Assembly: GCA_002721445.1 (NCBI GenBank)
Contig: PBKN01000002.1
Span: 2,629-53,296 of the forward strand
DNA from: Chloroflexota bacterium
GTDB lineage: Bacteria > Chloroflexota > Dehalococcoidia > Lucifugimonadales > GCA-002723415
Direction: 5' to 3'
DNA: 50,668 nt
The position numbers were made by a program, and so were the translations under genes. Positions 13,083 through 19,440 of this stretch are shown here, one piece after another (position 1 is the first letter of the stretch; each line of letters opens with the position of its first letter). The notes below the pieces were generated by a model that did not search any database, had not been told where the DNA came from, and worked only from the letters and a program-made list of their open reading frames with translations.

Positions 13083-13427
13083 ATGCATAAAGATAATAGA
13101 TTAAAAACAAAATCAGATTTTAGTAATCTTTATATAAACTCTAAAAGGCTAATTAATAATGAATTAATTCTTATTTTGAAACCTAATAATTGCACACTGT
13201 CAAGATTTGGATTTTCGATTAAGAAAAAATTTGGAACTGCTGTAAAACGCAATAAAATTAAACGAAGGTTAAAAGAATCTATTAGGCGTACAAATATAAT
13301 AGGTGGCTGGGATATTGTATTTATACCAAGAAAAAATATAAAAACAAAGAACTATCAACAAATTGAATTATCTATAAAGAACCTATTAATACGTGCAGGA
13401 TTATTAAATAAAAAAGTTGAAATTTAA
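13083..13427 (+). CDS. rnpA: Ribonuclease P protein component
   Basis: The 114-aa protein subunit that helps RNase P RNA trim the 5' leader of pre-tRNAs. It starts with the usual LKTKSDFSNLY, carries FGFSIKKKFGTAVKRNKIKRRLKE (about 44-67) which contains the RNR-type RNA-binding helix of the family, and ends with GWDIVFIPRKN and a basic C-terminal helix. Length is normal. It lies between rpmH and yidD; its stop codon ends one base before the yidD ATG, giving tight translational coupling. Confidence 0.95.
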   Translation: MHKDNRLKTKSDFSNLYINSKRLINNELILILKPNNCTLSRFGFSIKKKFGTAVKRNKIKRRLKESIRRTNIIGGWDIVFIPRKNIKTKNYQQIELSIKNLLIRAGLLNKKVEI

Positions 13428-13640
13428 ATGTTAGAAAAATTTATAATAAAAATAATAAATATATATCAAATTTCAATTTCACCTTATATTAGAGGCTATT
13501 GCAGACATGACCCTTCATGTTCAGAATATACAAAAAATTCAATTATTAAATATGGGACTTTTCGAGGCATTATATTTGGAATTAAAAGACTAACTCGATG
13601 TCGTCCCTTTGGCTCAAGTGGATATGACCCTATACCTTAA
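13428..13640 (+). CDS. yidD: Membrane protein insertion efficiency factor YidD
   Basis: A 70-aa amphipathic protein of the YidD family, thought to assist YidC-dependent insertion at the inner membrane. The conserved sequence is ISPYIRGYCRHDPSCSEYT (about 16-34) with the paired cysteines, then GTFRGIIFGIKRLTRCRPFG, typical of the family's R-l-xRCnPf. It starts immediately after the rnpA stop, and its 3' end overlaps the start of the next gene by 17 nt or more. Confidence 0.95.
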   Translation: MLEKFIIKIINIYQISISPYIRGYCRHDPSCSEYTKNSIIKYGTFRGIIFGIKRLTRCRPFGSSGYDPIP

Positions 13641-14823
13641 TCAAATAAATTTAAAAATAACAAAATTTAAAATAGTCTTATTTATTAGCCTATTTTTTCT
13701 TTTTCATGCTTCGTGTACAACAGTCGCCCAGCCTAAGGGAGGTTCAGTAGGAATAATTAACGAAGATACTTTGTATACAAATACTTCTACGGGCCAAATA
13801 AGGGCATTAGATATTATATCTGGGGAAGAAAAATATAAACCACATTGGCCATCAGATCAAGAAATAAGCATTGATAAAAAACTTGATAAAGAAGATCAAA
13901 AATATCGTTCATTAGCTATATATGGAGCACCAGCAATTTGGAAAGAAAGTTTATATTTAGTAACTTATGATGGATACCTATTTAAGCTTACTCTAGATTT
14001 AATTGAAGAATGGAGAGAGCCTATAGGTCAAATTATCAGTTCAGATAATAAATTTGTTGCTACGCCTACAATAGAAAATGGAATTTTAATTATTGGATCT
14101 TCTGAAAACAGCCTAATTGCATTTGACGTAGAAAATAGAACAAAAAAATGGACATTCCAGACTGATGGCCCAATCTGGTCTTCTGCATACATATATGAAA
14201 ACCAAGTATATTTTACTTCTTTAGATAAATATATTTATTCTATTAACCTCGAAGACGGATCTTTGGCATGGAAATTTAAGACTGAAGGAGCAATATCGTC
14301 TAGCCCTATCGTGCATAAAAATAAACTATATGTTGGATCTTTTGACAGAATATTATATGCCCTCAACTCCAAATCAGGAGATGAACTATGGAGGTTTGAA
14401 AATTCAAAAAGCTGGTACTGGGGTACTCCTGTAATACACGAGGATTACTTATTTGCTCCATCATTAGATGGCAATCTTTATGCTTTAGACATCAATTCTG
14501 GAAAACTATTATGGTCTTCAAGTACTGAAGGAAAAGTAGTTGGAACTCCTGCCGTCATTAATAATTTCATTGTAATTTCTTCTACAGATAAAAAAATCAG
14601 ATTACTTAAATTAAATGACGGACAACAAATCGATATATGCAATATAGGAGATAAAATCGAGTCTGATATTATCACGGATAATGATCTGATTTTTTTTAGT
14701 ACTGAAGACTCTATTAGGTCCATAAAAATCAAACAAAATGGTAATATGGATGAAGAATGGGATGGAGGGCATTTCTTTAAAGAAGAACAGCCTATTTCTA
14801 GTAACAGGATTAGATCATGTTAA
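13624..14823 (+). CDS. Secreted/lipoprotein PQQ-type beta-propeller protein
   Basis: A 399-aa extracytoplasmic protein. A basic stretch is followed by a hydrophobic segment (IVLFISLFFLF, about 18-28) and HASC, which could be a poor lipobox (His at -3), so it may be a lipoprotein. The rest is a run of PQQ/BamB-type blades with the YALD/W motif, for example LIAFDVENRTKKWTF, IYSINLEDGSLAWKF, LYALNSKSGDELWRF and LYALDINSGKLLWSS. I chose the ATG at 13624; a TTG at 13609 would add five residues. Either start overlaps yidD. Sitting between yidD and yidC, it may help envelope protein assembly like BamB, but that is inference from position and fold. No PQQ-binding quinoprotein catalytic residues are evident. 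Confidence 0.85.
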   Translation: MTLYLNQINLKITKFKIVLFISLFFLFHASCTTVAQPKGGSVGIINEDTLYTNTSTGQIRALDIISGEEKYKPHWPSDQEISIDKKLDKEDQKYRSLAIYGAPAIWKESLYLVTYDGYLFKLTLDLIEEWREPIGQIISSDNKFVATPTIENGILIIGSSENSLIAFDVENRTKKWTFQTDGPIWSSAYIYENQVYFTSLDKYIYSINLEDGSLAWKFKTEGAISSSPIVHKNKLYVGSFDRILYALNSKSGDELWRFENSKSWYWGTPVIHEDYLFAPSLDGNLYALDINSGKLLWSSSTEGKVVGTPAVINNFIVISSTDKKIRLLKLNDGQQIDICNIGDKIESDIITDNDLIFFSTEDSIRSIKIKQNGNMDEEWDGGHFFKEEQPISSNRIRSC

Positions 14824-14845: not shown

Positions 14846-15775
14846 TTGCAATTAATATCTGAAATATGGAATACAGTAATTATTGAGCCAATGATTAATA
14901 GCTTAGTGATTTTGTATAGTTTATTCTTCAATAATTTTGGATTAAGCATTATTATATTTACTATTATTATTAGAGGCATAATGATTCCTTTGACTGTGAA
15001 GCAAAGTCGTCAAATTAGAGAAATGACTTTACTCCAGCCAAAGCTTAAAGAACTTCAACAAAAATATGGAAAAGACCGTCAAAAAATATCTCAAGAAACT
15101 ATGCGGCTTTATAAAGAACACGGAGTTAATCCTTTAGGATGTCTAGGCCCTATGTTTATACAATTTCCAATATGGATTGGTCTATATCAAGCACTAATTA
15201 AAACTCTACCATCAACTCCAGAAAAACTGATAGACTTATCTGGATACCTTTACTACTGGATGCCTAAAGTAAATGAAATCATCCCAATTAACAGTGGCTT
15301 TTTCTGGCTAGACCTTGCTCAACCTGATAGAACCCCTTTATTACCGATACTAGTTGGAGTTTCAATGTGGATGATGCAGAAAATGACTACTATACCTTCA
15401 GCTGACCCCAAGCAACAATCAACTAATCAAATGATGTTATGGATGATGCCTGTTATGTTTGGATTTTTCACAATAAGTTTCCCTAGTGGACTAGCACTAT
15501 ATTGGATAATATCTAATATAGCTGGAATAGTTATTCAAGGATTTGTTACTGGGTGGGCACCTTTATCAAGTATCAGAACGAAACCCGTACAGCCGCAAAC
15601 TACAGATAATAATGAAAATATATTGAAAGAAGATCAGAGTATTACTGATTCAACTGGAGAAGAAAATAATGGTGAAAAAGATAGAAACGAAAGCAAAAAC
15701 AAAAGAAGAAGCAATAGAAATAGCACTGATCGAACTAGACGCAAATCGAGACGAAGTAACAATAGAAATAATTAA
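14846..15775 (+). CDS. yidC: Membrane protein insertase YidC/Oxa1
   Basis: A 309-aa insertase for inner-membrane proteins, of the short Gram-positive/Chloroflexi type without a large periplasmic domain. The core (about 1-235) has NNFGLSIIIFTIIIRGIMIPLTVKQSRQ with the conserved Arg in TM1 of the core, LGCLGPMFIQFPIWIGLYQAL, and the last helices MMPVMFGFFTISFPSGLALYW. The tail from about 245 is strongly charged and ends in a run rich in Arg, Asn, Ser and Lys, a feature of ribosome-binding YidC tails. The start is TTG at 14846, supported by AAGG 7 nt upstream. The last 107 nt also encode the start of Jag in another frame. Confidence 0.94.
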   Translation: MQLISEIWNTVIIEPMINSLVILYSLFFNNFGLSIIIFTIIIRGIMIPLTVKQSRQIREMTLLQPKLKELQQKYGKDRQKISQETMRLYKEHGVNPLGCLGPMFIQFPIWIGLYQALIKTLPSTPEKLIDLSGYLYYWMPKVNEIIPINSGFFWLDLAQPDRTPLLPILVGVSMWMMQKMTTIPSADPKQQSTNQMMLWMMPVMFGFFTISFPSGLALYWIISNIAGIVIQGFVTGWAPLSSIRTKPVQPQTTDNNENILKEDQSITDSTGEENNGEKDRNESKNKRRSNRNSTDRTRRKSRRSNNRNN

Positions 15776-16310
15776 CCCTGGTAAAGAAGGTGGAATGCTA
15801 GGTATAGGTAGTGAACCAGCAGTTGTAGAAGTTTCATTACTAGAATCAAAATCAGATATAACAAAAGCGACTACAGAAACAATCAATAAAATTCTAGCTT
15901 TATTACAAGTGTCTTGTGTATTAAATATGAATATCGACGATAATGCAAATATAGAATCTCCAAATTTTGAAATAGAAGGAGAAGATGGAGGCCTGTTAAT
16001 TGGTCGGAAGGGCGAAACTTTACGTAGTTTACAGATTTTAGTAAAAGCAATAGTTAATCATAAAATTGATTCCTATGTTAACCTAAATATAGATGTTGAA
16101 GGGTATCAAAAAAGACGTTATAATTCTTTAAAAAGTTTAGCCTCACATTCTGCAATGCAAGTAACTAAAACTGGTAGGCCTATAACATTGAATCCAATGC
16201 CACCCAATGAACGACGAATAATTCATTTATCTTTGCAAGACAATCCTGATGTCTCTTCAGAAAGCTATGGTTACGGCAGTGACCGAAAAGTCAAAATAAA
16301 TCCAAAATAA
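15669..16310 (+). CDS. jag: Jag/KhpB-type RNA-binding protein
   Basis: A 213-aa cytoplasmic RNA-binding protein. It has an N-terminal Jag_N domain (about 3-52, with IEIINPGKEGGMLGIGSEPAVVEV), a KH domain (about 75-145, with the LLIGRKGETLRSLQ signature) and a C-terminal R3H domain (about 148-210, with NERRIIHLSL). KhpB/Jag partners with KhpA on small RNAs and influences cell wall and division in Gram-positives. The ATG at 15669 has GGAGA 8 nt upstream and is inside yidC, overlapping its coding region by 107 nt in a different frame. The usual next gene, mnmE, is absent. Confidence 0.93.
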   Translation: MVKKIETKAKTKEEAIEIALIELDANRDEVTIEIINPGKEGGMLGIGSEPAVVEVSLLESKSDITKATTETINKILALLQVSCVLNMNIDDNANIESPNFEIEGEDGGLLIGRKGETLRSLQILVKAIVNHKIDSYVNLNIDVEGYQKRRYNSLKSLASHSAMQVTKTGRPITLNPMPPNERRIIHLSLQDNPDVSSESYGYGSDRKVKINPK

Positions 16311-16346
16311 TCTATTAAGATTTTCTAAATAAATATAAATTGAGTG

Positions 16347-17093
16347 ATGATTTTAAAACATATTGAATTATATGAAAATAAAGGAATTGCAAAAATAATT
16401 TTAAAATTGCAAAATTTTGATTATATAATCAATGAGCAAATAATTAGAGAATTAGAAAAACTTTGTGAAATATTATCTTACGATGACAAGACTAAAGTAA
16501 TAGTAATTACCGGTGAAGAAGAACATTTTTGCATAGGCTCTAATTTACAAAATTCTTCATATTCTAATATGCGAATTTCTAATTCGATCGCTAAAATTAC
16601 AAAACCTGTTATAGCTTCAATAAATGGAGACGCGATAGACCAAGGACTAGAAATAGCACTAGCATGTGATATTAGAATTGCTTCAAAAAATGCAAGGTTT
16701 GGATTCGAATCTTTAAAAAATGATATCGCGCCTTGGGATGGAGGTACTCAACGTTTACCAAGAATAATTGGACTAGGTAGAGCTATGGATATGATTTTAA
16801 CATCTAATATTATTAATAGTAAAACTGCTATCAAATATGGACTTATAACAGAAAGTATTGAATTTAATGAATTAAATTCTTTTGTGTTTGATATCGCAAA
16901 TAACATCGCACAACTTGGTCCTATAGCTTGCAAATATGCTAAAGAAGCAATAATTTCTGGCTTGGATATGACAATTGATCAAGGGTTAAAATTAGAAGGA
17001 GATTTAAATTTTATCTTACAAACTTCTGCAGACAGATCTGAAGGCATTAGTAGCTTTATAAATAAAACTACACCTAATTACTACGGAAAATAA
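16347..17093 (+). CDS. Enoyl-CoA hydratase/isomerase-family protein, atypical active site
   Basis: A 248-aa crotonase-fold protein. The two oxyanion-hole stretches are seen as HFCIGSNL (about 69-76) and ASINGDAIDQGLEIALACDIRIAS (about 91-114), the latter supplying the Glu equivalent to rat hydratase E144. In the ungapped alignment around FGFESLKNDIAPWDGGTQRLPR the second catalytic Glu (rat E164) is Ser, with Glu one place earlier, so hydratase activity is uncertain. An isomerase, lyase or thioesterase role is possible. GTG at 16344 is an alternative start one codon earlier. It lies 33-36 nt after jag and 7 nt before a second crotonase gene. Confidence 0.83.
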   Translation: MILKHIELYENKGIAKIILKLQNFDYIINEQIIRELEKLCEILSYDDKTKVIVITGEEEHFCIGSNLQNSSYSNMRISNSIAKITKPVIASINGDAIDQGLEIALACDIRIASKNARFGFESLKNDIAPWDGGTQRLPRIIGLGRAMDMILTSNIINSKTAIKYGLITESIEFNELNSFVFDIANNIAQLGPIACKYAKEAIISGLDMTIDQGLKLEGDLNFILQTSADRSEGISSFINKTTPNYYGK

Positions 17094-17100
17094 ACTTAAA

Positions 17101-17811
17101 ATGACGATTATATATTCAAAATCAAACTTTGTTGCGCATATAAAATTAAACCGACCAGAAGTTATAAATGCATACAACACTCAAATGAGGGATGAATTAT
17201 ATGAAGCCTTATCTGCGGTAAAAGATGATGAAGAAATTAGAGTATTAATAATATCTGGGAATGGAGATAAAGGGTTTTGTGCAGGAGCAGACTTAACAGA
17301 ATTTGGTTCAACTCCTTCGCAAATAATTGCAAGATCTGTAAAATACGAAAGAGATATTTGGACACTAATGAATGAAATCAAACAACCTATAATTGCTGCA
17401 CTTCATGGATATGTTATAGGTTCTGGCTTAGAAATAGCATGCTTTAGCGACATTAGAATTGCTGCCAATGATACAATTTTCAAAATGCCTGAATTGAGTT
17501 TATCATTGATTCCTGCAGCCGGAGGAACCCAAACGTTAAGTAGAATATTGAATTATTCTCAATCTTTAAATATTATCTTATCTAACAAAAGTATTTCAGC
17601 AACAAAAGCTAAAGATATTGGCCTAGTAAAAACAATAGTTCAAAAGAAAAATTTAACTAGTTATGTAGACAAACTTGCAAAACAATTATCAAAAATAAAT
17701 CCAAATTCTATACATATAGCTAAAAACCTAATTAAATCTAGCAAAGATTATTCTTCACACTATCTAACGCAAATAGAAAAAAATCTTTTAAAAAACTCTA
17801 AAGTCTCATAA
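17101..17811 (+). CDS. Enoyl-CoA hydratase/isomerase-family protein
   Basis: A 236-aa crotonase-fold enzyme. It has GFCAGADLTEFG (about 60-71) for the first part of the oxyanion hole and HGYVIGSGLEIACFSDIRIA (about 101-120) for the second, and keeps both catalytic glutamates (LEIACFSD and KMPELSLSLIPAAGGTQTL). This is what a true enoyl-CoA hydratase needs, although 2-oxo or dienoyl substrates cannot be excluded. The C-terminal helix is short. It pairs with the preceding atypical crotonase (7-nt gap) and is followed 66 nt later by an acyl-CoA synthetase, suggesting a fatty or aromatic acid degradation module. Confidence 0.9.
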   Translation: MTIIYSKSNFVAHIKLNRPEVINAYNTQMRDELYEALSAVKDDEEIRVLIISGNGDKGFCAGADLTEFGSTPSQIIARSVKYERDIWTLMNEIKQPIIAALHGYVIGSGLEIACFSDIRIAANDTIFKMPELSLSLIPAAGGTQTLSRILNYSQSLNIILSNKSISATKAKDIGLVKTIVQKKNLTSYVDKLAKQLSKINPNSIHIAKNLIKSSKDYSSHYLTQIEKNLLKNSKVS

Positions 17812-17824
17812 TTACAAATACACC

Positions 17825-17852
17825 TTGCAAATACATGATACAATCATATTTT
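17825..17852 (+). promoter_or_regulatory. Candidate promoter for the acyl-CoA synthetase gene
   Basis: TTGCAA (17825-17830) and TATTTT (17847-17852) with a 16-nt spacer lie in the 66-nt gap before the gene. Moderate match only. Confidence 0.3.
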
Positions 17853-17877
17853 TTAAATTAATAACCAATCAAATTAA

Positions 17878-19440
17878 ATGAATACTACAGAATTTTTATT
17901 ATTACCAAAGGAAATCACTCCTGACAGAACTGCAATTATATATAACGATATAAGATTAAGTTTTAATGAATTAAACATAAAATCAAATAAATTAGCAAAC
18001 TTTTTTTTAAAATCAAAAGTTGCACCTGGAGATCGAATTGCTATACTACAAGTAAATTGTAATGAAATAATTGAGTCCTATTTTGCAACTTCAAAAGTAG
18101 ATGCTATATATGTCCCATTAAACTTCAGATCGAAAAAACAAGAAATACTTCATTTAATCAATGACTCATCTCCAAAAATACTACTAGTAGGGAAAAGATA
18201 TATTGGCTTAATTAATTCTTTAAAAAAAGAATTAAAGTCAGTAACTCATTTTATTTCACTAGAATCTGAAGAGGACGGCTGGTTAAATTATAATTCAATA
18301 CTAAAAAATTCTGAATCGCAAACTATAAATCCAAAACATGACGAATCTGATACTAATTTGTTAATTTATACAGCTGGAACGACTGGTAAATCTAAAGGCG
18401 TAATGTTAAGCCATAATAGTTTTTCTTCGTTCATATTAAATCAAGTTGACCCAGTAGACCCTGAAATAAATGAAAGTAATATACTAACTGTTCCATTATT
18501 CCATATTGCGGGAATACAAAGTATGCTTTCTGCAATATATGCAGGAAGAACATTAATAATACAATCTCAATTTGATGCCAAAGAATGGCTGGTATTAGCA
18601 GAAAAAGAAAATGCAAACAGAGCAATGATGGTACCAACCATGTTAAAAATGATATTAGATCACCCTGATTTTAAAAAACACAACTTACAAAATCTTAAAA
18701 TTATTACTTATGGTGCGGCACCCATGCCTAAAACAATAATTCAAGATGCTATTAAAAAACTACCTTGGATGAAATTTATTAATGCATTTGGACAGACAGA
18801 AACAGCTGCAACAATTACTATGCTACCCCCTGATGATCATATCTTAGAATCTGACTCTGCAGAAGAATTAAAAATAAAACAAAAAAGACTTACATCTATT
18901 GGGAAACCATTAAATGATATTGAAGTAAAAATAGTTGATGCATTTGGGGAAAATGTACAAATTGGTGAAGTCGGCGAAATTGTAGCAAAAGGTGAAAGAT
19001 TGATGAAAGGCTATTGGAATAGAGATAAAGAAAGTAGCCAAGTATTAAAAAATGGATGGCTCTATACTGGAGATTTAGGTTATTTCGATAAAGATGGATA
19101 CATTTTCTTATCTGGAAGAAGTAAGGACATAATTAAAAGAGGTGGCGAAATGATTGCCCCTAGCGAAGTTGAAGAAATAATAAGATCTATTCCAGGTGTT
19201 GAAGATGTGGCAGTAATTGGCATTCCTGACACAGTTTGGGGAGAAAAAATTATTGCCATAGTAGTTCCAAAAAATACTTCTTCTGTTAATGATGAAAAAA
19301 TAATCGAATATTGCCATGACCATTTATCAAGCTTTAAAAAACCTGAAAAAGTAATTTTTGAAAATAATTTACCAACTAATCCGCTAGGTAAAGTTTTGAA
19401 AAATCTTTTGCGAGATAAATATAGTAAATTTAAATCATGA
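17878..19440 (+). CDS. AMP-forming acyl-CoA synthetase (ANL superfamily)
   Basis: A 520-aa adenylate-forming ligase that activates a carboxylic acid with ATP and CoA. Core motifs: A3 LLIYTAGTTGKSKGVMLSH (about 162-180, with Ser in place of the usual Pro in TGxPKG), A5 NAFGQTETA (about 302-310), A7 YTGDLGYFD (about 396-404), A8 GRSKDIIKRGGEMIAPSEVE (about 412-431), and A10 PTNPLGKVLKN with the catalytic Lys near residue 509. Medium- or long-chain fatty or aryl acids are all possible. It converges with serS, and their coding ends overlap by 6 nt. It probably acts with the two crotonase genes just upstream. Confidence 0.92.
   Translation: MNTTEFLLLPKEITPDRTAIIYNDIRLSFNELNIKSNKLANFFLKSKVAPGDRIAILQVNCNEIIESYFATSKVDAIYVPLNFRSKKQEILHLINDSSPKILLVGKRYIGLINSLKKELKSVTHFISLESEEDGWLNYNSILKNSESQTINPKHDESDTNLLIYTAGTTGKSKGVMLSHNSFSSFILNQVDPVDPEINESNILTVPLFHIAGIQSMLSAIYAGRTLIIQSQFDAKEWLVLAEKENANRAMMVPTMLKMILDHPDFKKHNLQNLKIITYGAAPMPKTIIQDAIKKLPWMKFINAFGQTETAATITMLPPDDHILESDSAEELKIKQKRLTSIGKPLNDIEVKIVDAFGENVQIGEVGEIVAKGERLMKGYWNRDKESSQVLKNGWLYTGDLGYFDKDGYIFLSGRSKDIIKRGGEMIAPSEVEEIIRSIPGVEDVAVIGIPDTVWGEKIIAIVVPKNTSSVNDEKIIEYCHDHLSSFKKPEKVIFENNLPTNPLGKVLKNLLRDKYSKFKS

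Follow-up and report, generated by a model that had tools for sequence, protein, structure and literature searches.

Do the last codons of yidC, which lie within the start of jag, encode a genuine part of the YidC protein, or does the yidC frame stand open there by accident? The question is raised by the junction of both genes in a window of 50,668 nt (i.e., the whole stretch of DNA analyzed in this work), in which the initial annotation, made from the sequence alone, had placed an out-of-frame overlap of 107 nt. The ORF check returned exactly the same coordinates (Table 1), and in the shared stretch position 2 of the yidC codons is position 1 of the jag codons. Bacterial genes on the same strand overlap frequently, but by mostly 1 or 4 nt, with overlaps above 60 bp being apparently selected against (PMC3887535), and long overlaps on the same strand are reported to favor phase 1 (PMC2542354). 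In the literature searched, which covers few subscription papers, we found no description of a yidC/jag overlap.

The yidC/jag junction and its two products

Table 1. Coordinates of the features of the yidC/jag locus within the window.
Feature	Position	Strand	Remarks	Basis
rnpA	13083-13427	+		
yidD	13428-13640	+		
PQQ/BamB-like gene	13609-14823	+	between yidD and yidC	
yidC	14846..15775	+	309 aa, TTG start, stop TAA 15773-15775	ORF
GGAG Shine-Dalgarno core of jag	15656..15659	+	9 nt upstream of ATG, within yidC	
jag (khpB)	15669..16310	+	213 aa, ATG start	ORF, Pfam, AlphaFold2
Dual-coding overlap yidC/jag (putative)	15669..15775	+	107 nt	
Overlap-encoded YidC tail	15671..15772	+	34 aa, net charge +10, predicted disordered	
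Jag_N domain	15690..15836	+	jag residues 8-56	Pfam, AlphaFold2

Both features by which an insertase of the YidC/Oxa1/Alb3 type is recognized were found in the yidC product, i.e., the 60KD_IMP domain (Pfam, E-value 3.8e-56, residues 31-234) and a multi-helix membrane core, which AlphaFold2 predicts confidently and with long helices (pLDDT about 95). Residues 258-279 fall below a pLDDT of 50 and the tail reaches 42-54; the protein thus ends in a positively charged C-terminal extension (+10) that is predicted to be disordered.

The Jag protein carries the Jag_N (3.2e-15, residues 8-56), KH_KhpA-B (2.3e-10) and R3H (1.3e-14) domains in the order known for Jag/KhpB/EloR, all above the Pfam cut-offs, and the normal Jag_N domain claimed for it was thereby recovered. 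Its predicted fold is confident (mean pLDDT 92; 34 of the 45 representatives introduced below were used in the prediction). The part of Jag encoded under the overlap is predicted to form a strand (residues 4-9), a helix (12-23) and a second strand (30-36), i.e., a beta-alpha-beta unit. The annotation had seen here the start of an RNA-binding domain, which has to be corrected, as the overlap encodes this Jag_N unit and the KH and R3H domains follow downstream; the function of Jag_N is given as unknown (PMC6403258). Judging from the models, a structured unit is encoded in one frame and a disordered basic stretch in the other, which is an easy combination for dual coding. In families f28, f30 and f41 (e.g., loci L113, L112, and L116) the Jag matches were split or lacked the N-terminal part of the query and the open frames were longer, which suggests that additional sequence separates Jag_N from the KH domain.

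The good ribosome site claimed for the jag ATG corresponds to the GGAG core listed in Table 1, which straddles the codons of Gly271 and of the conserved Glu272 of YidC. The genes rnpA and rpmH share a conserved neighborhood with yidD-yidC-jag. In the window, the PQQ/BamB-like gene encodes a beta-propeller protein with a hydrophobic, signal-like N-terminus, and, read from its TTG start, it would share up to 32 nt with yidD. Downstream of jag, on the same strand, the region 16344-19440 holds two consecutive enoyl-CoA-hydratase-like ORFs (the first one confirmed by Pfam) and an acyl-CoA-synthetase-like ORF, the latter and the second hydratase-like ORF being named by eye.

Occurrence of the overlap in the order, class and phylum

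The order of the window was searched in 147 genomes, 142 of which had a jag match, the window's own genome being the only one from its family and genus. Junctions were taken from 130 of these 142 genomes, and 127 distinct ones remained after the removal of three duplicates recognized by the last 60 Jag residues (G051, G094, and G124, with overlaps of 95, 95, and 104 nt). A stop of the yidC frame near position 15669 in the relatives, which the initial annotation had named as evidence against the overlap, was absent: in 126 of the 127 junctions the genes overlap in the same frame by 74-122 nt, most often by 104 nt (52 loci), followed by 107 (17 loci), 110 (17 loci), and 113 nt (16 loci). The jag gene starts with ATG in 125/127 loci and has a Shine-Dalgarno core of at least 4 nt within 16 nt upstream in 123/127, although both counts are biased upward, since the picking of starts favored ATG and such a core. 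The lone exception is locus L084 of genome G021 (L145 is a second copy of it in the same genome), where the genes are separated by a gap of 14 nt and lie in a different frame. The YidC tail of G021 is less basic alongside the loss of the overlap, which makes this genome a natural experiment.

In the class outside this order, 92 loci from 50 families were surveyed; 38 of them (18 families) overlap by 74-179 nt, 33 have a same-frame overlap of 17-53 nt, and the remaining 21 show no or almost no overlap. Among 40 loci of other classes of the phylum (30 families), no overlap longer than 38 nt was found. Two loci were left out of this survey, i.e., L217, whose contig lacked yidC, and L273, in which a start was missing. 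Longer overlaps of yidC and jag occur in other families of the class, e.g., 140 nt at L140, 179 nt at L210, and 140 nt at L215. Seven genomes of family f52, which look like those of organohalide respirers, have overlaps of 89 or 113 nt and 19-30 reductive-dehalogenase matches each, so that, judging from gene content, they would resemble Dehalococcoides/Dehalogenimonas and the class would be Dehalococcoidia. Because one member of the order (G021) and 21 of the 92 class loci do without it, the overlap is not indispensable.

In a FastTree phylogeny of the YidC core and Jag, with the overlap removed and 24 order rows representing the 127, a branch with support 95 set the order apart, and class and order were united at a fork (support 98), these values being local support. 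This tree requires 13 or more switches between the long and not-long states of the overlap, and therefore the history of its gain and loss is ambiguous.

Selection on the yidC frame within jag

In the overlap, each yidC codon consists of the wobble base of one jag codon and of positions 1 and 2 of the codon after it. In the wobble-only null model, the amino acids of Jag and the first two bases of its codons were held fixed, and the wobble bases were redrawn from the genome's own yidC codon usage. The starting set comprised 110 loci in which jag was complete and overlapped yidC by 70 nt or more; in 103 of these, jag was unambiguous and yidC had no fewer than 200 codons, and they were reduced to 45 representatives sharing less than 65% Jag identity (GC3 0.22-0.95). 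As the representatives were chosen for having the overlap, the deficit of stops given below is inflated and the other results hardly so, because 126 of the 127 order loci qualify.

Over jag codons 2-30, the yidC frame of the 45 representatives contains 6 stops vs 104 expected, and 505 of its 1240 residues are Arg or Lys vs 309 expected (z 16.3), i.e., 41% vs 25% under the null. The pairwise identity of the yidC-frame residues is 0.385 vs 0.241 expected (z 32.7). With stops excluded from the null, the z values are still 11.6 for R+K and 22.8 for identity. In windows sliding along jag, the effect declines past the overlap and is near zero beyond about codon 37. The last window (jag codons 181-210 in the 45 representatives) shows a small rise in identity (z 3.8), for which we have no explanation.

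Members of the class without overlap, used as a control, gave z 1.0 and 1.7; for short overlaps (17-53 nt) the values in the class were 10.2 and 4.9, for long ones 8.9 and 6.6. In the other classes, z was 3.3 for R+K (5.2 with stops excluded) and -0.1 for identity (1.4), and this excess of R+K, which has no counterpart in identity, indicates that the composition signal owes a part to short overlaps or to a generic effect at the 5' end. For the window alone, where a stop could have arisen at 12 codon boundaries, the chance of the yidC frame staying open across the overlap is 2e-4. Moreover, a stop stands at column 35 in 28 of the 45 representatives vs 11 expected.

These results bear on the simplest alternative, according to which the yidC frame is open by chance, composition, or sequencing error and the tail is a meaningless read-through into jag. 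The frame one base off Jag_N is indeed somewhat basic without any selection (the 25% of R+K under the null), and composition can produce long phase-1 overlaps (PMC2542354). However, an accident would hardly be kept in nearly every junction of the order, nor would it account for the deficit of stops, the excess of identity, and the low probability obtained for the window alone. We regard chance and sequencing error as extremely improbable, being contradicted by the conservation together with the wobble null. Both frames are thus, as judged from the wobble null for yidC and from domain and residue conservation for jag, under purifying selection. It was proposed in the initial annotation to check whether the yidC tail frame is kept open and under such selection, and the survey of junctions and the wobble null uphold this; the comparative tests likewise support its view that both products are real coding sequences.

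The tail differs sharply from what precedes it. The linker after the last membrane helix of YidC has an identity of 0.12-0.14 among the 45 genomes, and the 40 residues before the overlap carry a mean charge of -3.2, whereas the overlap-encoded tail reaches an identity of 0.42-0.46 in its main part and a mean charge of +9.9 (range 5-14), so that the basic YidC tail noticed in the window is a property of the whole set. Glu272, Arg291 (15716-15718), and Arg299 (15740-15742) are conserved, each of them in 90% or more of the 45 YidC proteins. The description of the tail as rich in Arg, Lys, Asn, and Ser stood as far as the excess of R+K over the null is concerned; the richness in Arg, Ser, and Asn is partly automatic, because it results from reading the E/A/K-rich helix of Jag_N one base off. 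The last 35 residues carry a charge of at least +5 in 122 of the 126 tails of the order, in 12 of the 21 class tails without overlap, and in 37 of the 40 YidC proteins of the other classes, in which jag is barely or not overlapped. Since the tails are basic also where jag is not or barely overlapped, selection appears to act on the basic tail itself, with the overlap being the means by which particular lineages encode it; the 25% of R+K that Jag_N yields anyway when read one base off would have helped.

It may also be supposed that the wobble constraint serves the RNA (its structure, initiation signals, or an A-rich start) rather than the YidC protein, as the region is a translation start and a small R+K excess is present at the jag starts of other classes, which have little or no overlap. 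The choice of wobble bases bears on these possibilities. Before GC or GT, T was found at 0 of 175 wobble sites vs 51.8 expected (three box types summed), although it would yield Cys there and no stop; at two-fold pyrimidine sites in this context all bases were the Arg-making C (C:T 45:0 vs 23.5:21.5 expected). Before GA or GG, A and C (both giving Arg) were increased at fourfold sites and G (giving Gly) fell to 35 vs 66.6 expected, whereas before GC or GT it was nearly unchanged (27 vs 30.6). The pattern was absent from a control stretch (jag codons 61-150), except that purine two-fold codons followed by GA or GG preferred A there as well; these codons alone are therefore misleading. In Fisher tests against the control, G before GC or GT was still slightly low (p 0.04). 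The preferred base switches with the next dinucleotide, and on this comparative evidence the wobble pattern tracks the amino acid of the yidC frame. This context dependence makes a constraint acting at the RNA level very unlikely.

Translation, function and significance of the overlap

Considered together, the junction is very probably a genuine dual-coding overlap, with a basic YidC tail overprinted on jag, which would tether the ribosome by analogy with known tails, and with an independent start of jag. The last ~35 yidC codons sit in the start of jag, one base off; read as yidC, they give a conserved, predicted-disordered Arg-rich tail after a variable acidic linker, and read as jag, the opening part of Jag_N with its two strands and the helix between them. 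As to its origin, yidC may have grown into the neighboring jag, whose E/A/K-rich beginning, one base off, would already have spelled Arg, Gly, and Ser, and the wobble choices may later have been tuned towards Arg.

Basic tails of YidC/Oxa1 proteins are reported to bind ribosomes (PMC8733628, PMC8595059, PMC8546722), e.g., in yeast Oxa1, YidC1 and YidC2 of S. mutans, and the YidC proteins of Rhodopirellula baltica and Oceanicaulis alexandrii. The tail described here resembles those of YidC/Oxa1/Alb3 proteins in its location after the last membrane helix, its strong positive charge, and its predicted disorder; unlike them, it is encoded inside the next gene and has a conserved pattern of Arg. 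By this analogy it probably tethers YidC to the ribosome.

Stop-start coupling of both genes does not fit the locus. It is measured by an upstream stop and a downstream start lying within about 10 nt (PMC3711429), and in the window 104 nt separate the jag start from the beginning of the yidC stop codon; the lengths of the overlap in 126 of the 127 order loci misfit it as well. Because the yidC stop, ~100 nt past the jag start, is too far away for simple coupling, ribosomes would initiate on jag independently, at the Shine-Dalgarno sequence that it has inside yidC.

The independent start also rules against a programmed frameshift fusing YidC and Jag into one protein. Such a fusion would agree with two frames overlapping by ~100 nt in constant phase; however, jag retains its own start, nearly always ATG and with a Shine-Dalgarno core, the stop of the yidC frame is commoner than expected, and the shift would have to be +1 or -2, all of which renders a fusion extremely improbable.

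The overlap could also be mainly regulatory, i.e., ribosomes ending yidC would cross the jag start and couple or damp the synthesis of Jag, the tail being a by-product. The position of the jag start and its Shine-Dalgarno core inside yidC in 126/127 order loci is in line with this proposal. Selection, however, follows the Arg residues of the tail and the conserved stop, which regulation alone does not demand, and the tails of other classes are basic where jag is not or barely overlapped. A mainly regulatory overlap is therefore unlikely, though a regulatory role and a function of the tail could both hold. A feedback device, in which the polybasic tail would slow or anchor the ribosome on the jag start at the membrane and so tune Jag to the output of YidC, is a similarly doubtful option; if true, it would place jag mRNA at the insertase and tie both products by shared bases.

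Among known overlaps, the junction may be compared with rnpA/rpmH of Thermus (PMC9841429), which is also an out-of-frame overlap of housekeeping genes and, according to that 2022 paper, has no other described counterpart of its type in bacteria; in Thermus, rnpA contains the whole of rpmH and the two genes use a common initiation site, whereas yidC and jag overlap end-to-start and jag has its own Shine-Dalgarno sequence. With the usual phase-1 pairs it has the common strand in common, and it differs from them by its length (~105 nt), its order-wide occurrence, and the selection shown for the second frame.

A long overlap of two conserved housekeeping genes, maintained across an order and with selection on the second frame, is unusual in bacteria. 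It exemplifies the overprinting of a short basic motif within the gene of a folded domain, and the wide range of GC3 (0.22-0.95), the dozens of families, and the natural loss within the order make it a clean system for study, for which cultured relatives apparently exist, as judged from gene content. Recoding the first jag codons freely would harm YidC. The locus allows asking whether YidC and Jag, neighbors of unclear relation, are linked in their expression.
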